From Grifola frondosa (taxonomy: Eukaryota; Basidiomycota; Agaricomycetes; Polyporales; Grifolaceae): a stretch of DNA of 64,000 nucleotides. The DNA is taken from positions 868,001 to 932,000 of the forward strand of contig LUGG01000005.1 in NCBI GenBank assembly GCA_001683735.1, given 5' to 3'. Shown in pieces: positions 1,016-47,216 of the stretch. The number at the start of each line of letters is the position of its first letter. Positions within the stretch are counted from its first letter, which is position 1. A program made the position numbers and the translations under genes. Below the pieces are notes generated by a model. That model was given only the letters and a program-made list of their open reading frames with translations, did not search any database and was not told the DNA's origin.

Positions 1016-1194
1016 ATGGTATGGGTATGGCGGTGATTGTGAGCATGAGTGTAGATGTCTAGCATGAGCATATAAGTAATGAGGGAGTGAGACACATTAA
1101 TATGTCAAATATTTGACATTTGACGTGGGCTATAATTATTTGAATTTAATTTAATTTAATTTTATGTCTTAAAAAGTGCTTATCGACGAAGGAT

Positions 1195-1275
1195 CCAGAC
1201 GGATGACGTAGTAGCAGTCATCGACGGGTCAAAATTGGCTCGTCAACGACCGCTACTACATCATTGGTCCAGACC
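1195..1275. repeat. Long hairpin element, copy 1
   Basis: An imperfect inverted repeat. The left arm near 1202-1226 (GATGACGTAGTAGCAGTC and on) pairs with the right arm near 1240-1264 (GACCGCTACTACATCAT) around a loop of about 14 nt. A second copy with the same stem design is at 32515-32585. It looks like a small foldback element or the tip of a MITE. No ORF. Confidence 0.65.
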
Positions 1276-1849
1276 GGCCTATGCATTGTAGCCACCGGGC
1301 TACTTGGCACATTAGACATTTGACTGCTGCAAGGCGAATACTGGACCGATTCACTTCGCATAAATGTCATCTTCTTTGGGTAAATTCTAGCTTTCGGACG
1401 ACTCCTCATATGCATGAATTGGTGCAGTACATCAGCAAAACTCCACTTTTGCTTTATTTCCTTTCTTGAACTTATTTTCCTTATTTCAAGACAAAAAAGC
1501 GCAAAAAGAAACATAAAGTGATATCAGAAGCCGAGCTATCATTAAAAATAAGGAACTGAAGGATAATTAAGACCATCCAACAACTCAAAGCAAGACAAGG
1601 AACACATTTAGGCGCTGATATCGCTATCATCAAGAATAATAAGACACAAATAAGACACTCTCAGGCCATCCAGAAGCAGAAGAATAATAATCGCGGCATG
1701 TTCTTATTTTCATTATTGTTCTAGTTGATCTCTAATAACTTTTATTATTCAAACGAGAGGGATACAAGGATGAAAAGAGTGAAAAGTCGGGTAAGTATGA
1801 TTTCGAAACGAAAAGGATCAATGCCGAACATATATCGGTTGATAAATAG

Positions 1850-2270
1850 ATACACACCTGTGTCTCGAACTACCTTTCGCAGTACCTCCCGCTGACTGGG
1901 ACAACCGCGCCAGCAGGCCCATCTGTGCGACAGAGGATCAGACGGATGTTTCAATATTTGAGTGCATGGTCGCCTAGTGCTCCGACCTGAGCCGCTCAAT
2001 GTCAGCAGAGTGCTCTGCCTCAATGCGCTCCAGCGGCTCGCTGAGCTCCCCTTTGTGTGCCTTCAGATCCTTGCACATGATCTCTTTCTCCCCGTTCTTG
2101 ATTGACCATACCGTCGGTGAAATAGCTCCAGAAGACATAGAGGTAGAGATGGGAGTGCAAGGGAGTGTGCGAGACAGCTGGCAAGTGAACGGAGATAGAG
2201 GCTTTGCACGATCTGGCAGAGGAAAACCACCTGTCCGAAGTGTCATTGGGAGGCCTGTTCAGCACCAATG
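1850..2270 (-). pseudogene. Coiled-coil gene fragment (kinesin-like tail?)
   Basis: The minus strand encodes a charged heptad-like segment (LKAHKGELSEPLERIEAEHS, then IERLRSEH). A stop interrupts it, after which readable pieces resume (IETS, LLARL, REVLRKVV). The composition resembles the coiled-coil tail of the kinesin whose motor fragment lies at 3600-4710, but it has no diagnostic motif and could come from another gene. It follows the PRM1 fragment on the same strand inside the 11 kb transposon, so I treat it as captured host sequence. Confidence 0.35.
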
Positions 2271-2279
2271 GAGCACAAC

Positions 2280-3590
2280 TTACATGAAGTGGAGCGATTC
2301 TGTCCCTTCTTCCAGAAGCCCCTCGTCATGCAGCTGAACCAGGACGAAGACTGACGTCTCCACTTCCGTGGTATCTTCAGCCTTCTCATCCTTACCAGTA
2401 GATATCTCCTGGTCCATTGCCTTCCGCCTGACGACCATCAATTTCATTGGCCCGCTAATCTTTGGAGGGCCTGTTCTTCCACAGGGGCCAGGTGATTGCT
2501 CCCACCCTCGCCGAATCCGAGACAAATCTCTTCGACTCTGTGCGGGCATCAACACGTAGAAATGCAGGAAAGGATGACCTGCTCCAGCCACCTTCTTCAC
2601 ATCCTCTAAACATTTGCAAGCCTGTGTTTGAGAACAGTTGGGATAATCTGTTGGATGGCATAGGCATGAACGAGGGCAGTTCCACTTGAGTTCTCTCCGC
2701 ACCTACATCCCCACCGATGTCGCTAGCACCGCCGGCTGTACTCCTATCTCGGAATGGAACCACGATACTGTCGACTCCCACGCACTGCATCTTCCATTAT
2801 TGGTGGCACCCGTATGCTCACACCATGTCCCAGCCATAGGAGTGCCAGAAGATGATGCAGAGCACCATGAGTACGACGAAGCCCCACAGGCCCATGAAAA
2901 TACCGAACATAATACGCTCCTTCTTGAGCGAGCTCTCGTACGCTGCCACGAGGCACGCCGTCCAACGAGTCCTTCGTTACCACTTTGTCTGCTGCCGATT
3001 GCTGTCGCAGCGATGAGCTGGGTAGCCTCATTCACATCCGCGGGGAGAGCACGAGTACGGTTTCGTTCACACGTGGGATGTCTACATATAAGTTGTCATG
3101 CAGGAATGTGAGTGCATTCTCGATCGCATTGACCTTCGAGCCGATGAGGCACCGGATGAACTCCTGGACGGGGCTCTCCAGGACCATGCCATTGAAACCC
3201 GTGCTGACAGCAGTCTGTATGCCCATGTAGAACGTGTTGATCGTGTTGTTAAGCATTGTCGTCGTGCCGTTGACCCAGCCAAACATCCTGTCGGTGATTG
3301 TCGACTGCACGCTGTCCACACGTGCATTCACCGCATTGGCATATGTGGCGGACCGGTTGTACATGCTCACATTGATGGACAATGCAATGACATTCGAGAA
3401 GTCTGACACAGATGTGGCTGCCTGCTGTGAATACTTGTGCGAGAGCGGGCCAATCGCGATCAGCTGCAGCTCGATGCAAAGCAGGCCGAAGAAGCCGATG
3501 AGGAAGCATGCGAGCGCCGGCAAGTGGAAGACATAGTGGAAGAAGAGCTGCAGATGCATGTGCTGCAATGGGCTGAGACACCGATAGCTT
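2280..3590 (-). pseudogene. PRM1: PRM1 plasma membrane fusion protein fragment
   Basis: PRM1 is a multi-pass membrane glycoprotein that helps plasma membranes of mating cells fuse. The longest frame (3032-3568) opens with a membrane segment ([18 protein letters not shown]). It continues into the family's N-glycosylation-rich ectodomain ([47 protein letters not shown]). The frame then breaks at about 3035 and resumes in another as NEATQLIAATAIGS, followed by the last membrane helix ([19 protein letters not shown]) and a low-complexity tail to about 2285. There an intron donor (GTAAGT) is still present. The N-terminal part is missing. The fragment sits inside the 11 kb transposon next to a kinesin fragment, so it is most likely a captured, dead copy. 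Identity is firm; capture is inferred. Confidence 0.8.
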
Positions 3591-3599
3591 GTTGGTGAG

Positions 3600-4710
3600 C
3601 TTCATCAGCAGTGGGTGGGCTGAACTCGCCTGAAGGATCATCAGGTTGTTTGCCGTCGAATGCCAAGGACTCTTCAGATTCCATTCTGCTGCTGAAGCTA
3701 CTGATTTTCGTAGGGGGCGGATCCCTCCATATCTTTCCTGGCATGGGCAACCTCGGTAAAAGATGCTCCCTGTGCTCTCCGGCCTCCTTCCTCTTTGCTT
3801 CCCATTCCGCCATCTTCAACTCCAGTGCACGCATCCCCTTCTCCCACTCCTCAGGATCTGGCCTCCAGCTCTCATCATCTCTAGTTTTAATGACTGGGAC
3901 CCCCTCCATTCTTGGTTCACATTCACTTTTGAGTTTCACGACCGTCTCATGAATGCAAGCCTCACGGATTCATCAGAGCATGTCAGATGAGCCTCCAGTT
4001 CCACAATATAGTGAGAAGCATGACATTTGGTGTCCTTGGAACTTGAAGAGTTCGCGCTTCAGCTCGGTCATTGAACCACTGGAGAAAATAGAATTCTCAC
4101 CGTAACACTTGACGTTCTCCTCCAGAACACGGATGTAGGACTGTCCAATGAATATTAGTACGACACAGAATGAATGCAGATAAAACTTACCATTGTAGAT
4201 GCCTCCTTCTCTGTCAACTCGCAGCTTTGGACTTCAGTTCCTTGAGGTACAGTTCTGTAGTGGATGATATTCGGAAATCTCCACGTACTCCGTGTCCTTC
4301 TCATTGTAGAGGTCGCTCGTATGTGTGAGGGCTGTGCGGTTTAGCTTGAGCTCAGCCTCCATCATGCTGATCGTCTTCTCGTGTTCCTCGATGACTGGTC
4401 CAACGATTTCCTCATACTTTGTGGTTCCACTGACACCAGCTCGTTGATATGCTTAAATATGCCAATTCACATGTAACACCAAGAATTGTGTAGTCGTCAA
4501 TGAGAAGGAGGAGGGTTGAGACAATGTGAAGTGGCTGTGGCAGGTTATGATTACGCAACTTCCAAATGAATTCAAGGGGACTCTGCGGGCTGACACACGC
4601 TATCATCAGTGTATGCATGTTGCCGCCTAAGGAGTCTTGCAGGAGACGTGTGAGTTTGGAATCACGGGAGGGGATGTAGGAGTTGGAGCAGTTGCGGCAG
4701 TCACAGTGAC
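3600..4710 (-). pseudogene. Kinesin fragment (end of motor domain plus coiled coil)
   Basis: The minus strand carries the conserved end of a kinesin motor, [18 protein letters not shown] followed by [10 protein letters not shown] (about 4590-4690). Downstream, in shifting frames, is a long coiled coil typical of a basidiomycete kinesin: EEIVGPVIEEHEKTISMMEA, LTEKEAST, YIRVLEENVKCYGENS, and ALELKMAEWEAKRKEAGEHR (about 3770-3830). The region at 4141-4190 is a typical intron with GTAAGT donor, TACTAAT branch site and CAG acceptor, so this is a DNA-level copy and not a retrocopy. The ATP-binding half of the motor is absent and the remaining frames are broken, so no working motor can be made. It joins directly to the PRM1 fragment. 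Confidence 0.8.
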
Positions 4711-5231
4711 AGTAACCATGGCCTAAAAGGAAGACATATGGGTAGAAAGTTTGATTGATCACAGAAGAACATACCTCGCAGTCAGCAGTAGTGCATGCAG
4801 CAACAAGGGCATCACCAGTAGTAGTGATGGAAACAACCGAGGACAATGCTGATGTAGAAGCAGAAGCGGAAACAGATGCCAAAGCAGAGGAGTTCGATGA
4901 TCTGATTTGCCATTATCATGTAAGGGGCTCCAGTGCGTATCTTGTATTGAACACCTATGCACCAAAGTGGCTGTCTGGGATTAGGCTCGCCAGTGTGAAT
5001 TCCTCTGTACACACGAGAAAATGTGCTGGACAATGTGGCGGACTGGCTCACGAAGTGCTGGCGTGGCATGAGATGGAGCGCAAGGGATGCTGCACCGTGT
5101 TTATGAACAACAGGCACATCAACGATGTGCTTGCAAAGTGATGGCAGTGGTACAATGGAGTGCAAGGGACACTGCAGGATAGTGTAGTTGCAGGATGATG
5201 GTGGATCTTCGGTGATAGTGTTCTCGGAACC
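4711..5231. other. Spacer inside the 11 kb transposon
   Basis: It separates the kinesin fragment from the 3' end of the transposase gene. A plus-strand frame covers 4755-5141, but it has no recognisable domain and lies in unrelated low-complexity sequence. I see no supported gene. Confidence 0.4.
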
Positions 5232-8200
5232 TCAGAAGACCGTCTCAAATGTGTGGTGGTCAGCGAATCTGTTGACATAAAAAAAGCGGAATGCATCAAG
5301 AGCTTGGTGCTCCGTAAGACCTCGCGGTACGGGCTTGTCTCCATAGACCCCGATTAAATGGGCGGCACGGACTATGGTGTCGAGGTGGATGACAGATAGA
5401 ACAGGCGAGTGGTTTTTTGTCTCTGGGCAGACAATGTACATACCTGTGTCCTCATCCGGTTCATCCGAGGTGCGTCGGAACCAGCGGACGAGTGCACATG
5501 GATAATGCATATTCCAGAACTTGAAAGAGAAGAAGAGGTAGATGCGCACAATGCCAAGGCCATGGATGCCGTCCACGTCAGCGTCACAATTGACAAAGGT
5601 GCAATCGAACTGAGGCGCAGTGTGCCACCACAGAGGAGTGGCACGAAGGTGCTCGCGGTGCATCCTGCCAATCCCAGATGCATCGCTTGGTGTGTAGTAT
5701 GTGGCTGCAGCAGAGTAAAAAATGGAAATCCGCTCGTTGAACATCGGACATTCTGTGTAAGGTATTTCCAATCCTGGGAGATCACTATCGGGATTTAACT
5801 GGTCATATAGGAAGTGGGAGATGAGCTCGGAGAGCCGAGGCTGTCCAATTTCGTTACCAAGATCAACAGCCATACGTGCATGTTGTTGACCTACACAAGG
5901 TATGAGTCTCAATTCCAAGAAAACAAAATGAACACATACGGATAGTTTTAGCCATGGTAACGTAGGCGAGAACAGTTGGGCCAGGTAGTGCTCCGCCATT
6001 GTTGTTTGCTTTAGGGAGGTTTATTTGCATATCTTCAATTTCTAACGCCTCTGCGGGGACGTCCTCCTCAGGATCTGACGAAGGCATCTCAGCTGAAAAC
6101 AAGACACAGATTGGCAGGGAGCATACGTAGAGCAAAGTATACTGCAGACAGGCATGTTCCCTTGAGCATGTTTTGGTGTCTGAAGTCAACACGAGAAGCA
6201 GAGAGCTTGAGGAGTCTCTGACAAATAAGGAGGATTTGGCCTAGGGGTTCAGCTCGGTTTGATCTGCGGTAGGGATCCTTCACAGCTTCGATGTGTTTGG
6301 ACTCTGTTATCGAAGAACACAGACCATTCGGAGCTCCAAACTCCAAAATGAGGAATCTGTAGTGGCGAAGTGAGTGCTGTCGTGGCAACAAAAAACCATC
6401 CGGTCGGACTCCAGTCGTCTGGAAGATTACACGATTGGTGTAGAACCTTTCGAGCACATTGTCCAGCTGGCATAGCATCTTCTCTGTGTGTACATTGTGC
6501 CGAACGAGGTAATAAAATTCGAGGAAGGCTCGAATTGTGCGAACCATCTCTCTAGGTACATACCCAACGATTGCGGCCAGATAGACCTATTAAAGCTCTG
6601 GTCAGCTGTGTCTGACATGTTTAGAATAGAGTGGTTACCTTCATCAATGCCTTAGAATCATCACCGGTCCATTGCTTGAACCCACGCCCTTCGTGGAATC
6701 GGTGAAGCCCGGAGAATGGAGGAGTAACAGTGATGCTGAAGTAAATTACATTATTAGCTGGTCTCACGACAGCAATGATAGAAGGACTTATCGGTGGTCA
6801 ATGTCTGCTAGAATATCCTGAGAACATGCTTTTGTGTGCGTTTGTATGATGTATGCCTCGACCCAATCGACTAGATGATCCTTGAAGGTACCCTTGATGA
6901 GCTGGTGCAGGATATTGGGCGCGATTAATTCGTGGATATCAGCGCGAGGAAAGTCATTCGTAAATGGCTACAAGATCAGAATGGTCAGCAACCATAGACT
7001 CGGGGTACTGCGAAAGATCCTGAGGAAACATAACGGAATCAAAACAAGAAGGTGACAACCCACGGTCTGCCCAGAATAGAAATTTCGCTGCCTGTATCAC
7101 AAAAACAGATAGACGCGAATGAATCCAGTAGCGAGGGAATCGAAAAGAACTATTACATACCACAATATCCTCAACCAAACCGTACTGGTCCCACAGCATT
7201 CCTAACTCAAAGTGTTCAGCAAGCATATCACTATATTCACACGTGCGACATCCGCCGCCGCCGCCATCGAGGTCATTTTTGTTTGTCGTACATCTGTAAG
7301 TGGAATTAGCATTGCAAAGGATGGCAGACACGGAAATACGTACTTGGGGCACCACCCTTGCACTATGCAGGCAAGTAGTGCCTGCTCCAGATAATCAGCA
7401 ATATATGGACCCAATCCGTAGATCGTCCATCTGAAATGACCATCTGCACAGCGCGTCACTTCAGGCGTCGTCATGCCAGACTTGAGGGATCGCAGAATTC
7501 ACACCAATGACGAGTGGAAGACCTGTCTGCGAAACTTTCGAAATGTAACATCGTTAGCATATTCGCAGCTGGCTGCATAGTAGATATCTGAGTATTTTGC
7601 CAGTGCATATGAAATGATCGAACTGTTTACTCACTTTTCGGGATGGCCAAAAAGCCAATTAGTGCGACTGCGTTACGGTGTGCACGTCAAACATTATTGT
7701 AGACGTTGTCTATTGAGGCGTATAGCGGATAGTATTCATTTTGACCGGTAGCGACTGATACAGTGGTCTTGTCGCTGCCAAGAATTACAGGTACGAATGC
7801 AGCACCATGCGTTTCCGGATCCTTGGCAATCTCATCCTAAAAATTTTGAGGCAAATGAAAGGATAAATGGTAAAAATCACTCACTGCTTGTCTCCAAGCC
7901 CAATCTCCACCCATAAAATTCTTCAGCCTACGCTCTCCGTCAACGAATTCCCGGAGAGGCATGAAGTCGATTTTGTCTTTGAAGTCCGGGTTGGCAAGCA
8001 TGTTTTGTACGACGGCCCGTGGGTCTCTGAACCACTGTCATAGGTCGCTGTCATCCATTCTGGTACGTCGTGGTCCGGAATTTCACCGGTATATTGCATG
8101 TCGAATGACTCCCACTTGACATCTCCAAGCACTGTTGAGTTGATAGTGTGATATAGATCTCCGTGGTTTGAGAATGGGCCGTGGTCGTTGTGCATCAAAA

Positions 8201-8960
8201 GAGTCGCCTCCCAAAGGTCTAAAAGAGCATCGATATTACCTTCGGGCATCTGTTCACACCTATATAACAGATCTGCAGCCTCAAACTCAAGCCTAGTGTG
8301 GTACAGAGACCAATCGCTGGCTAACTGAGGTAAAGGAGGAGGAGGGGAGTTCCTGGGGGTAAAAACGCGCCATTCTCATCACATGGCCTTGCTAAACTGA
8401 AACAGTGAGAAGTGAACGGACAACAAAACACGGAATAACTCACCATTGATAGTGGGATGGATCTCTTGTGTGAGACCTTCTGGTTCCACATCGTCAAGCG
8501 GATGGTCCGCTGGGTCATGATCCGGAACCTCGTCCTCATCGCGGTCGCTCATATCATCTGATGTCGCCGAAGATGAATCTTCCGGATCGTAGACGTCCTC
8601 CCCCACTGCCACTGCAGACTGGTCACTGTCTGATGCACCTGAATTAGCGCGACTGATCTTGAAAGCACTATCTGAGGCCTGGTCATCGGAGGAAGGTATA
8701 TTCTCGTGATTGAACTCAAACGCGTCAGATTCAGAGTCGGAGTCTTGCGTGCATAAATCCGGTCACACATCGGCCTGCAATGGATTGTCTGTATGGTGTT
8801 GCTGCAAGTGATTCGTCCTTCCAGCCTTGTTCTTGAACCAGCAATCACAGTGAGGGCAGGGGAAGCTCCTGGCGTTGCGCACTGGCCACCTGTGGGAGAT
8901 GCGATCCTGGACACCAGACATTCGCCGCAGTGTTGATGGCAAGAGTGATTCAATTATAGC
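5232..8960 (-). pseudogene. Plavaka-type (CACTA-related) transposase, decayed
   Basis: This is the large transposase gene widespread in agaricomycete genomes. Reading the minus strand, the N terminus has a C2H2 zinc finger (FPCPHCDCWFKNKAGRTNHL, about 8820-8890) and then a Ser/Asp-rich linker. Core blocks follow: RPCDENGAFLPPGTP, PEGNIDALLDLWEATLL, WFRDPRAVVQNMLANPDF, ILGSDKTTVSVATG (about 7770), GLGPYIADYLEQ with IVQGWCPK (about 7370), FPRADIHELIAP, IFQTTGVRPDGFLLPRQHSL, GAPNGLCSSITESKHIEAVK, and the C-terminal STIHLD-like and DAFRFFYVNRFADHH blocks ending at 5232. At least six introns separate them. There are in-frame TGA stops near 8767 and 7710 (the latter where the family has Arg before AHRNAV, CGA to TGA) and frameshifts near 8345 and 8035. 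It is therefore probably inactive, although some frameshifts may be assembly errors. Confidence 0.8.
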
Positions 8961-9203
8961 TAGTAAATGATTGTCTTTGAGAACAATGCAAGAAGAGATA
9001 TATTTGACATCTTACTTCGTAGTATGATCCAATCTGGGCTGTAATTGCACGTGAAGTCTGTCGTTCGCTCCAAGAACTATAAACAAGTACTGCTAAGTAC
9101 CATCTACGCGGTAGATGCCGTCTCTTGTGGATACATCGGGAACTTCTGCAAAAAGATTGGTCAGCTTTTCTGTTGGTCTCCATCACTCTCTCTATTTTCA
9201 TCA
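8961..9203. promoter_or_regulatory. Divergent promoter region of the transposon
   Basis: About 240 bp separate the presumed start of the minus-strand transposase from the plus-strand second gene. The head-to-head layout implies a shared upstream region. No individual element could be identified. Confidence 0.35.
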
Positions 9204-11407
9204 TGGTGAAAACTCGTGCCAGCAATGTCAACAAGCGTCCTGGTGAGCCAGACAAGCCCCATCATCATCGTACCCAAAAGGAGATGGAGGAGGATTGTTT
9301 GAAGAAGGAAGCTGAGACGAAGAAAAAGGCGAGCGTTGTAAAAAAAAAGCAGGAACACATAGCGTCTCTGGAAGACGACATCGTGTCGACAGATGTCCAA
9401 ACTGAATCTGACCGTGTCATGCAGTCAACCGGAGGGTGCCTTAAGTGAACATATGCCATGTCGGACATCAATGCAGTAAGCGACCCAGAAGAAATCTTGA
9501 ATCAGCCGAAGGCCCATTGTCCATGTAGAGGATCCACAATTATTTAGTGACGTCGACATGGTTGATGGCAATTACACTTCAAGGCTAGACACAGATTGGG
9601 CCTCGGACAGCACGCTTTCCTCCCTGGAGGACTTGGACTCACCAGAGCCCGAACTTCCCAAGCCGCCGAAGAAGAAGGCTAAGAAGCAGGTGGACGGTGG
9701 GAGAGATGCTATATCTGCTGCTCAGAAGATGCCTGCTACTGCTTCTGTCACTGACCTGAAGAGTGCAGTGATGAAAGCATCAACGGTATCGACCGCGAAG
9801 CAACCAAAGTAAGTTCTAAGTTATTAATTGAACAATCCTGCTTACCTCCATCCTGATTCGTTCGTTAGGTCACAGAAGCCAGGCCAGCCTGAGTACAAAG
9901 GGAAGTCTGGTGTTAAGACGGGTTGGGTGCCTCCGCTAGTGCCTTCCCAGCCTGGATGGACATCTCAGGCGCCGCCAACGACCAAAATGGTTGTAAAGCC
10001 ACCTGCAACCCCGCACCCTGTTCGCAACAAGACATCAAAGCAGCCGAAGAAGATGCCAAAGATGCCACTAATAGTGCAAGAGGGAGGGTTTGTTAGCGAA
10101 TCAGATGAAAGTATCGAGAAGATGGCCGCTCAATCCAGTCCTCTCAAGCCTGTCACCGGAAGAAGAGTCACAAGCAATGTGAGTAATTGACTCACCCGGA
10201 TTGGCAGATACTGACCACTGGGTACAATGCAGGGGATTGTAAAGACTGAAGACAAGCCGATGTTGGTCAGAAAGAAGGCAGCACAGTCGGCGGTCATGAA
10301 TCCAGGTCCATCCAAACTGGCTGATTGGCAGTTGAGCGAATCAGATGGAGTTGAACTGGTTGCATTCAAGAAGAAAGCATCAATGTCAAAGAAGCCGTCA
10401 AATGGTAAAAAGGACGACTACGCCCTTCCTGAAGAAGCAATCCCGTTGTGGAACAAGAAGGCAATCCCGACAATTGTCATGTTCGTTGGGACCTGCTGCT
10501 TTCCGTGGTCCTTCATCGAGTGGGCGGGGATGGAGCACATATTGGGATTGAAGGTACTTTGTATGATCTGGGTGTTCATCTACGGACCAGTGCTTCCGCC
10601 CCCTGAGCCGATATCTCTCTTGTGTCCATTGGTGAGTCTGCAAATAGTGAACGATCTCACCCACCTAATAATCCGACCCTAGGTAACACAGAAGCTCAGC
10701 GAATATAGGTTTTTGATGGGAAATGCCGCCATTACCGGTTATCATAAGCACTTTGCGAAGGTGCTGGAATCCGCTAACACTCTCGATGGACGGGCTCACG
10801 CTGCAGAGCTGCTGCTGAAGGAGGCTAAATTCACCTATGAGAATGCAGATGGCATGGTAAGTGTATTTAGATTGCACTTAATCAGTCTGACGTTGGAGCT
10901 CGCTTAGAATCGCCAAGGATTATTCCGCGCACCGATGATCTTGAGAGCTTTCTTCATACACCTTACTGCAATTGAGAATGCAGTGAACATTCCTGGGTTA
11001 TATGTGGATGAGTATGCGAAGCATCCGATTGGTGCCCTGAGTCTTGCTGTCACAGCGGTAAGCATCTTCCTTCGTATAAGCATTAAGCATTTTCACTGAT
11101 GTATTGGCAGGCTGAACGAGCATTGACGCTATTCAAGGTCAAGTGCATAACATTTGTGGGGGAAAAACCCAAATACACGGAGGTATACAACGACCGCACC
11201 GGCTGCACCAGCAACATCTGGAACTACTTCAGTGAAGACAATTGGGGCTCGGTGATGCAGGAGTGGCTGATATTCGTGCAGAGGCTTTCCGATGCCAAGA
11301 TTGCAGCTATTATTCACAAAGCGCACCCAGTTCGCAAAGTCATCAACATCTCTGATGAGGAGCAAGACTTCAACCGTGCCATGATGGTTGATCTGGACTC
11401 TGATTAA
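9204..11407 (+). pseudogene. Second gene of the Plavaka-type transposon, unknown function
   Basis: It starts MVKTRASNVNKRPGEPDKP, a start common to a large agaricomycete family of unknown function. A Lys/Glu-rich, probably nuclear N terminus follows (KKEAETKKKASVVKKK), then an acidic stretch (SLEDLDSPEPELPKPPKKK), then a longer alpha-helical C-terminal region (SFIEWAGMEHILGLKVLCM, VLESANTLDGRAHAAELLL, HPIGALSLAVTAAERAL) ending VDLDSD. GT-AG introns are visible at about 9811-9858, 10179-10232, 10632-10682, 10857-10906 and 11058-11111. The C-terminal layout recalls the DUF6532-like helical domain of basidiomycete proteins, a tentative link. A frameshift lies near 9520, where the frame moves to the DPQLFSDVDMVDG block; elsewhere it reads well. 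The divergent position suggests a transposon accessory protein. Confidence 0.6.
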
Positions 11408-12429
11408 CCATCAGTACGTATTTTCTGCCTTCAAACCATTCTAGTTCTCATCGTAACATTACAGGCAAGCTGAATATTCCGCGGCGCATACACAAACCAC
11501 TATGCCCATCATCTCATAGTTCCGTCGCTCTATATGCTGCCATCTCGTGCTCTCATCACCTTGTACTATGCCACCATGTCGCGCTTTCATCGCCTATGCC
11601 ATCTTCATACTCTCTGCTCCATTTTCTATGTGTGCGCGAGCGCTGAACGTTCCATGCCGCCATACCACCCACTCGCGCTTTTGTTGTCCTACTGTGTCCT
11701 CCTCCACTATTATCTATGTGCGCACGGACGCTGAACATTCCGCGGCATGCATGCGAGCTGCCATATATCCAATGTTCTATCCATCCACTGCCTTCCGTAC
11801 ACATATGCCCTATGCCGTTCCCCAGCCTGGTTGTTGCCGGCGCTGTGTCGTGGTCTCCTCACGCACATTGCGCAGTCCCTCTCCGGTGCTCAATCTGTTC
11901 CTAGTACTACAGACTATTTTCCGTACAGTCCCAAAAGTGCTGCATTTTTGCGCTTATTCTGTTTGTGCTCTTGTTTGCACTTTTTTCTTACTCTTCTCAA
12001 CCTACTTGGCCGTCGTTTGGATTGTCCGGATTCTTTGATACTCTGAGCGTGTCTTGTAGTTCTGAATTGTCTGAATCTGCTTCTGTACACATGTAGCTTG
12101 ATATTCTGAATTTGATTGTCACGATTGTTGACATTGAATCTCTTGATTGAGTTGTTATGCTTATCTGTCTGTAAGTCTTGAGGCTCTATTTTGTGCTGAT
12201 CATTCTTACAGGTTTAGGGTCGTGGATTCAATTGTTGCGCTCAATGTTCATACCGTCCTTAATGCGCCAGTTATACTTATGAGGTCCCACAGGCTTATAA
12301 CACTGGTATTGCTTTCTGTATACTTATTGTGCTGATATGTTTGATTCTCTTTGATTTCTAGTGCCATCAAAAGTCGCCATTCCAAGTAAAATAAGTATCG
12401 AGCCCTCTTTAGATTACTTATTCTTCTTG
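11408..12429. other. Non-coding right part of the 11 kb transposon
   Basis: A pyrimidine-rich tract. A 163-codon open frame (11547-12038) exists, but other frames are open too, as expected where stops are rare, and nothing in it matches a family. A short block GCTGAAYATTCCGCGG recurs imperfectly at about 11468, 11649 and 11730, suggesting subterminal repeats of the transposon. Confidence 0.45.
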
Positions 12430-12489
12430 TACAAGTAAAAAAAGGGCCAAAAAGGACAATTTGACTTTTGCTGATGTATTAATTTCTAA

Positions 12490-13005
12490 ATCTGGGGTGG
12501 ATACCAGCCAGCAAAGCAGGGGGAGACAAAACTTTATTGTAGTATGGGGGTCTGTATTGTAAATAATATTGAAGAGTACATTAATGAGAGTAAGAGGAAT
12601 GTTAAATGAAGAAATTTGATGAAGAACTGATGGAGGGGCAAGGGGAGGAATTCTGGTGTGGCTGAGCCTGCACCCACCAGAAATGGTATGTTTTCTGTGA
12701 CATGTTCTGACAAATAAAACTCAGAACATTAAATAGATAGTATATGCGACCAAGGGGATGAAAAAATCAAGAGATTTGGTGAATATTTGGGGGGGGAATT
12801 CAGCAGAACATTCTGGGGTGGCTGCCCAGAATGGTATGTTTTTATTGTCATAGAATAAGGAATAATTTATATATTTGAACACTACCAAATGAGCACTTTC
12901 TGACGAATCTAATATGAAGAGAATCCGTGAAGAATTGAGGGAGAAATGGAGGAAAAAACATATGGTGGCTGAAATCAAAACATACCAAATGCGGTATGTT
13001 TTCCA
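12490..13005 (+). repeat. Dispersed repeat R1, copy b
   Basis: Same family and orientation as 485-1015, with the same ordered blocks and the same internal GAATTC modules. It begins a few bases after the right end of the 11 kb transposon and runs into repeat R2. Confidence 0.75.
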
Positions 13006-46490: not shown

Positions 46491-47216
46491 GAGTGCTATT
46501 TTGTCTTCTATGGTTCATTTTGCACACAGTTTCTTGTTAGCAGCAGTTTGTGAGGCAATAGAAGACTTAGTAAGAAACTTTGAGTGTTCAGAGTCATCAG
46601 GCTAGTCCCAGTATTGCTTGAGCTCATTTGACACTTTACGACCTTCTTCTCACTAATGTCAGAAATTAGCATTGAACTGTGAACATATTACAATTCAGAT
46701 CAGCCATGCTTAGCATGCTCACAGTAGCACCAGCTACTTGTGCAAATGCCTAATTTGATTTTCTTGCTGGTCAGGCTTTAATGCCTCATATTTATAGTCT
46801 TGCTTATGATAAGTTCAAATCTCACTCATCAGCAAAATTTAGATTTGATCTACCATACTTTTTGTCTCTCAAGTATACTTAAATGCACTTTTAAAAATTC
46901 TTATGAGATCTCTTTTATGGTTTGATCACTCTTTTTGATCTTACTATGGGTTACCATATAATCAGCAGGATTTACATTTTGGTGGTCACACAAAAGTAAC
47001 ATAGGATCACACATGCCAATTCTAAAGCATATGTGGCACCTGCTATGGCTGATGGAGGATCTTTCATATCAGTGTATAATTTGTGGTTATAGAATTTGAC
47101 TAATGTAGTTAATAGTGTGTACACTAAAGACTGAGAATTCAGATCTGCTCTTAGACTAAAACTTTGAGGGGTCAGCCTAATCACAGGGCATATAATATAA
47201 GCAATTGTTTTGAGAT

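Follow-up and report, generated by a model that had tools for sequence, protein, structure and literature searches.

The described transposons closest to the element studied here are those of the PlavakaB group, which, in the excerpts of the published accounts on which the comparisons of this section draw, have termini CATCA..TGATG, duplications of 2 or 3 bp and a Plavaka transposase; some of its members in other fungi carry one captured TET/JBP dioxygenase gene (PMC12730594). Here we analyze an 11-kb element in a 64,000-nucleotide stretch of the Grifola frondosa genome (assembly GCA_001683735.1, contig LUGG01000005.1, positions 868,001 to 932,000, forward strand), hereafter the window, which is part of contig C5 of a 39-Mb genome; donors and empty sites were compared within this one genome. 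The element, at window positions 1430-12476, is like PlavakaB in its termini, duplication length and transposase. However, the TET/JBP genes are described as mostly undisrupted, whereas here several broken, nested and unrelated pieces come from many donors.

Plant Pack-TYPE and Pack-CACTA transposons (PMC8903248) are likewise CACTA-related elements with terminal inverted repeats (TIRs) that hold host gene fragments and multiply by transposition; here the fragments sit in transposase-bearing fungal elements, with nested filler. Host fragments do lie between the TIRs of the window element and their donors lie elsewhere, and the cargo has been mobilized, being found in two copies at unrelated sites (the window and contig C7). 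The element is nevertheless not Pack-TYPE in the strict plant sense, that of a non-autonomous element lacking a transposase, because a transposase gene, though probably broken, is present inside it. The animal Pack-TIRs explained by gap filling or FoSTeST (PMC8277862) have in common with the present case short fillers, microhomology, template switching and later amplification. For them, the parental copy lies within 15 kb in more than half of the single-copy cases, whereas here several donors from other contigs are layered in one element.

Among fungi, a hAT element of Pyrenophora tritici-repentis (PMC3538342) is also a TIR element with a host-like gene, in transposase-bearing and short forms, and its abstract calls this transduplication the first example in fungi. 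It differs in belonging to another superfamily and in carrying one histone H3-like gene with a reading frame, no mosaic being described in the excerpt. The Helitrons of Pleurotus (PMC4289320) are mushroom transposons with extra genes too, but they lack target-site duplications and the authors conclude that host gene fragments were not captured. A fungal screen of transposon co-option describes gene capture for helicase-bearing elements, and the word Plavaka is unused in its excerpt (PMC10799480). Gene capture by TIR transposons is known already, and the TET/JBP cases in print (PMC12730594) narrow the remark of the initial annotation, made from the letters of the window, that gene capture is not known to be described for Plavaka-type elements carrying a mating cell-fusion gene. 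Its serial, nested multi-gene form in Plavaka is apparently unreported, as far as weak evidence from open-licence literature goes, mostly titles and abstracts and including PMC8290104. The present analysis shows such a layered cargo inside exactly defined element boundaries.

Boundaries and genes of the element

When the two flanks of the element (1180-1429 and 12479-12728) are fused with one TA, they align over bases 1-498/500 of the 500 at no fewer than 14 other places, with 85-95% identity. This count of empty sites is a lower bound, 40 of 168 candidates having been scored, and besides the 14 the 47 matches to the fused flanks are partial, secondary or the window itself. The junction of GGTGCAGTA and TTAATTTC has a single TA in all four empty sites checked base by base. 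Because the flanks with a single TA align unbroken elsewhere, the boundaries 1430-12476 and the TA duplication are exact, and the initial annotation is borne out in its Plavaka-type element with inverted ends and outer TA; empty sites, which it had asked for in related strains, were found as paralogous sites of the same genome. Inverted arms of 46 nt (1428-1473 and 12433-12478) are 74% complementary, and the exact 14-mer CATCAGCAAAACTC from the left end occurs 123 times in the genome. The termini read 5'-CATCA..TGATG-3' and the duplication seen from the empty sites is 2 bp long, so that, taken with its PF18759 domain, the element can be classed as a PlavakaB-type DNA transposon. A Helitron is ruled out by the TIRs and the TA duplication. 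The main features, in window coordinates, are as follows.

1428..1429, no strand, left copy of the target-site duplication (TA), from empty sites with a single TA
12477..12478, no strand, right copy of the target-site duplication (TA), from empty sites with a single TA
1430..1475, plus strand, left TIR, beginning CATCAGCAAAACTCC, from the inverted-arm comparison
12433..12476, minus strand, right TIR, ending GACTTTTGCTGATG, from the inverted-arm comparison
1430..1956, plus strand, left arm, about 380-525 bp of which are common to other family members, from genome alignments
1180..1429 and 12479-12728, no strand, target of the element, a repeat with empty copies elsewhere, from empty-site alignments
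5232..9011, minus strand, Plavaka transposase gene region with a weak N-terminal C2H2 finger match, from open reading frames (ORFs) and the PF18759 profile
9203..11407, plus strand, divergent second gene, matched weakly by DUF6532 at E 8.6e-5, short of the Pfam cut-off; exon limits judged by eye

The target repeat has at least 14 full-length copies elsewhere, and its partial copies lie in inverted pairs, mostly about 1.1 kb apart.

The transposase and the divergent second gene expected by the initial annotation are both present. The PF18759 transposase domain lies on the minus strand (C5:874860-876073), with E 1.3e-6 for one exon. Stops occur inside some of the matched stretches, in the window copy as well as in the C7 copy described below, and some of them may be intronic; the transposase of the window element is probably dead. 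Intact-looking Plavaka domains are present elsewhere in the genome.

Captured pieces in the window element

Host-like stretches occupy positions 1957-5097, on the left arm side, beyond the 3' end of the transposase gene. The pieces and their donors are the following.

1957..2071, minus strand, kinesin-4 piece 1, donor C34:327888-328002
2073..2302, minus strand, kinesin-4 piece 2, donor C34:326953-327226
2298..2509, minus strand, PRM1 piece a, donor C12:384691-384902, with exact 5-bp microhomology TTCTG to the kinesin piece
2505..2658, plus strand, PRM1 segment inverted in place, donor C12:384541-384695
2654..3649, minus strand, PRM1 piece b, donor C12:383544-384545
3652..4436, minus strand, kinesin-4 piece 3, with an intron at 4141-4190, donor C34:325847-326660
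4442..4578, plus strand, inverted kinesin-4 segment, donor C34:325512-325646
4580..4681, minus strand, kinesin-4 piece 4, donor C34:325393-325495
4704..4957, minus strand, piece of an unnamed gene, donor C8:1555542-1555807, coding strand by ORF reading only
4962..5097, plus strand, piece of an unnamed gene, donor C2:2605566-2605721, coding strand by ORF reading only

The kinesin stretches (1957-2302 and 3652-4681) are colinear with their donor (C34:325393-328002), and the PRM1 stretch (2298-3649, corresponding to C12:383544-384902) is nested between them. The kinesin is identified by the Pfam Kinesin profile (E 3.3e-12) and its kinesin-4 type by a few relatives annotated as 'kinesin family protein 4/21/27'; PRM1 is recognized by its relatives, among which is a 'Plasma membrane fusion prote...'. 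The broken PRM1 and kinesin pieces noticed in the initial annotation thus align to loci elsewhere in this genome, and to them can be added the nesting, the two inverted segments and the two further pieces at 4704-4957 and 4962-5097, which bring the contigs that supplied donors to four (C34, C12, C8 and C2). The C12 locus is the sole further PRM1 that was found: when the genome was searched with a relative, the six matches fell in pairs on C12, the window and the C7 copy.

The intron at 4141-4190 in the kinesin piece stands at the matching place in the C34 donor (L013:1749-1798). Since the donor intron is retained, genomic DNA was copied, as the initial annotation had proposed, and capture of a cDNA or retrocopy is ruled out. 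A decayed kinesin-like stretch (L026/L034, C8:1113319-1116968), 71-73% identical to the window kinesin piece, has no CATCAGCAAA end within the fetched flanks.

The captured pieces lack starts and ends, contain indels and inversions, and are unable to give the donor proteins. In the open 189-aa PRM1 frame, the window and C7 copies differ at 25 codons, 14 of them silently, where CpG changes would be expected to be silent in 42% (p 0.16); as the silent share fits the CpG expectation, there is no sign of constraint on this frame. The cargo is most likely passive rather than coding.

A second copy and related elements

The same mosaic is found in a second full-length copy (C7:131921-162189) on the minus strand, with segment identities of 96.3-98.6%, which has its own 2-bp CT duplication and flanks unrelated to those of the window, differing from the first base outside the element. 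The same cargo together with a separate duplication means that the cargo moved with the element, and the abrupt change of flanks argues against a segmental duplication. Of the transitions between the two copies, 236 of 280 are in CpG context, compared with 25% of sites (p 6e-97); the copies have therefore diverged mainly by CpG transitions, and the DNA of the element looks methylated. About 19 kb of other DNA (C7:141402-160583, ends GTTGT...ACAAC) splits the PRM1 piece of the C7 copy.

Matching 2-bp flanks were found in 8 of the 12 family members examined (p 9e-8 against a chance of 1/16). The short element C2a lies inside a relative of the element on C19, and the C19 sequence provides the empty site, with a TG duplication. 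Three 2.56-kb relatives (C3:52589-55152, C2:3404663-3407227 and C2:3118861-3121422) are 99.6-99.8% identical at different sites, so the family has moved recently. In the window itself, further CATCAGCAAAA-type ends occur in both orientations at 46827, 47425 and 52535; the first and the last of these agree over a longer end, CATCAGCAAAATyTAG, and are possibly the two ends of a further element.

The window copy is not alone in carrying cargo. Besides the C7 copy, which has the same pieces, host pieces are present in all four further arms that were fetched with this question in mind, two of which (L057 and L058) were chosen for ends far from the transposase, a choice that favors cargo, and two (L075 and L076) by the rank of their transposase match. 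The left arm L057 belongs to a related element (C5:971774), and its pieces, 84-95% identical to their donors, are listed below.

Trehalose-phosphate synthase, donor C5:567457, sense
MOR2/PAG1, donor C2:2006615-2007357, sense
Glyoxal oxidase, donor C2:657756-658573, sense
DNA polymerase gamma by eye, donor C36:119397, sense, Pfam DNA_pol_A E 8e-5, below cut-off
PALP below cut-off, cystathionine-synthase-like by eye, donor C12:903262, sense
Coproporphyrinogen oxidase, donor C10:1656060, sense
Further pieces, donors C5:1417767, C6:1398931-1399675 and C8:309782

The C19 element (L058) has five donors in common with L057, plus C10:1358801-1359700, which is P450-like by eye and without a Pfam match. 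Donors common to both arms tend to be less similar to their pieces than those private to L057, as expected of captures that would be older. In the C16 arm (L075) a piece of RPN7 is nested within PRP8, and the C22 arm (L076) holds a PRP8 piece; these two arms, for which 6 kb of sequence revealed no left end, had been considered as a cargo-free baseline and were rejected as such because both hold host pieces. C36:2597-9197 matches most of the C16 arm, including the PRP8 and RPN7 pieces, at 73-86%, from which it follows that the C16 mosaic, like that of the window, is not single-copy. Weaker matches in L057, L058 and L075 (C14:815576, C24:254681, C12:228361, C19:451028 and others), to which no genes are assigned, stand outside the donor and strand tallies.

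The 3.7-kb element C2c (C2:98549-102273) has no transposase, and in it a GH115 piece adjoins a remnant of the kinesin stretch (piece 2). Its core, common to the 2.56-kb group, also matches unassigned places such as C3:153444-154010. The 2.56-kb elements and their longer relatives (C3a, C2a, C2b, C8a, C21, C8b and C10) stood outside the donor search, and their frames yielded no assignment.

Junctions, order of capture and orientation

Thirteen junctions, a subset of those mapped, were examined by their letters, and two of them have exact 5-bp microhomology (p 0.0016 against chance). More such cases had been suggested by overlaps of BLAST matches and were not borne out. The polymerase-gamma piece interrupts the L062 piece between neighboring bases, without any base being lost, which has the look of templated filler at a break. 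Donor stretches are missing from the MOR2 and glyoxal-oxidase pieces, at first sight in the manner of spliced introns; they read as coding by eye, that of MOR2 lying within an open frame, and the gaps are therefore deletions rather than the result of splicing.

Since PRM1 is nested inside kinesin, the kinesin DNA was captured before it. Transversions relative to the donor, used here because CpG decay leaves them untouched, number 19 of 1354 for PRM1 and 68 of 1358 for kinesin (Fisher p 8e-8), as would be expected if PRM1 is the younger. The kinesin capture seems to be early, because a remnant is also present in C2c; it would predate the split of the window and C2c lineages, PRM1 and GH115 having apparently been added independently.

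All 11 donors that have protein-family or homology support run in the same direction as the transposase (p 0.001). These are kinesin, PRM1, trehalose-phosphate synthase, MOR2, glyoxal oxidase, polymerase gamma, PALP, coproporphyrinogen oxidase, GH115, RPN7 and PRP8, the strands of polymerase gamma and PALP resting on Pfam matches below the cut-off and the orientation of GH115 being taken from the element ends, as C2c has no transposase. Six further strands come from ORF reading only: the C8 gene, L062, L067 and L068 run with the transposase, and the C2 gene and L066 run against it. The tally over all donors is then 15 of 17 (p 0.002). This sense bias is to be taken as a lead, the sample being non-random and some pieces being of common lineage; the orientation may have been kept by purifying selection or by chance.

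Mechanism and alternatives

We consider it likely that the cargo arose as breaks were repaired again and again, with switches of template to donor genes, and was then transposed. The interval that separates the left arm from the transposase gene, at the 3' end of the latter, would be tolerant of insertions, and an occasional break or gap in it would be repaired by copying short unrelated stretches of the genome, the template switches being guided by little or no homology. Such repair would leave chimeric filler with deletions and in-place inversions, and later repairs inside earlier filler would set younger pieces within older ones. The loaded element would then move by cut and paste, its cargo being copied along. 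In the window element, kinesin-4 DNA would have come first, PRM1 DNA later and into it, with two more pieces adjoining. We infer this repair route, and any order in time beyond the nesting, from the structure of the mosaics.

Several observations weigh against this reading. At the other 11 of the 13 junctions exact homology amounts to 0-3 bp, the match is imperfect or a little filler intervenes, and this fits end joining as well. The unequal constraint on the donor genes could contribute to the transversion difference. The initial annotation had called for intact paralogues, and loci do exist elsewhere, but the C12 PRM1 donor has one frame change between two long open frames (L012:2100-2130). 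The captured PRM1 in the window has the same frame change, which may thus predate the capture or reflect something unusual in PRM1. Donors may also have lost or altered sequence after capture, and a closer paralogue of a donor could exist in another strain; pre-capture elements are not visible in a comparison confined to one genome. Finally, the 2-bp flanks are mismatched in 4 of the 12 family members (C8a, C2c and two miniature inverted-repeat elements, MITEs).

An alternative route, proposed for plant Pack-TYPE elements in the excerpt of PMC8903248, is that of a macro-transposon, in which two related elements flanking host genes move as one and the internal ends are lost. Pairs of CATCAGCAAAACTC ends at short distance do recur among 100 of the 123 places, in line with such a route. 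It is nonetheless quite improbable for the window element, the donors of which are on different contigs (C34, C12, C8 and C2) and the pieces of which are nested in one another, with in-place inversions; moreover, the exact 11-base end motif is absent inside the element, diverged relic ends not having been sought. It could also be imagined that no capture took place and that a Plavaka element inserted in or beside old pseudogenes, which would agree with pieces that are broken and confined to one side of the transposase. We regard this as very improbable indeed, because the pieces lie within the boundaries defined by the empty sites and recur in the C7 copy, at another locus with other flanks. 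The cargo might, on the other hand, be functional for the element or the host, by way of chimeric transcripts, small RNA or a gene-like cover against repeat silencing. The sense orientation (11 of 11 supported donors, 15 of 17 in all) and the still open 189-aa PRM1 frame speak for this possibility, which is however unlikely: deletions, inversions and indels interrupt the frames, the changes between the two copies within the open PRM1 frame are compatible with a lack of constraint, and the element, with 236 of 280 transitions at CpG, looks methylated anyway. Repeated break repair with template switching would account for the nesting and the inversions within one element, and remains our preferred reading.

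Implications

Through layered capture of unrelated host genes, a little-studied group of mushroom transposons becomes an agent of gene shuffling. The mechanism can be put to the test with the layers and the empty sites: nesting gives a relative order without a clock, the junctions and the inversions in place carry information about the route of repair, and a direct prediction about RNA-based conflict follows from the sense bias. As a tentative idea, about which we are more doubtful than confident, the region adjoining the transposase gene at its 3' end may be a standing cargo bay that gains pieces of housekeeping-type genes lineage after lineage, the sense orientation being kept since antisense pieces, when transcribed from the transposase promoter, would bring about the silencing of essential donors. 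If this is true, the layers of the cargo bay would be a readable record of captures and of a small-RNA conflict between the transposon and the genes of its host. In the annotation of mushroom genomes, such elements can be expected to give rise to false gene models and to spurious paralogues of housekeeping genes.

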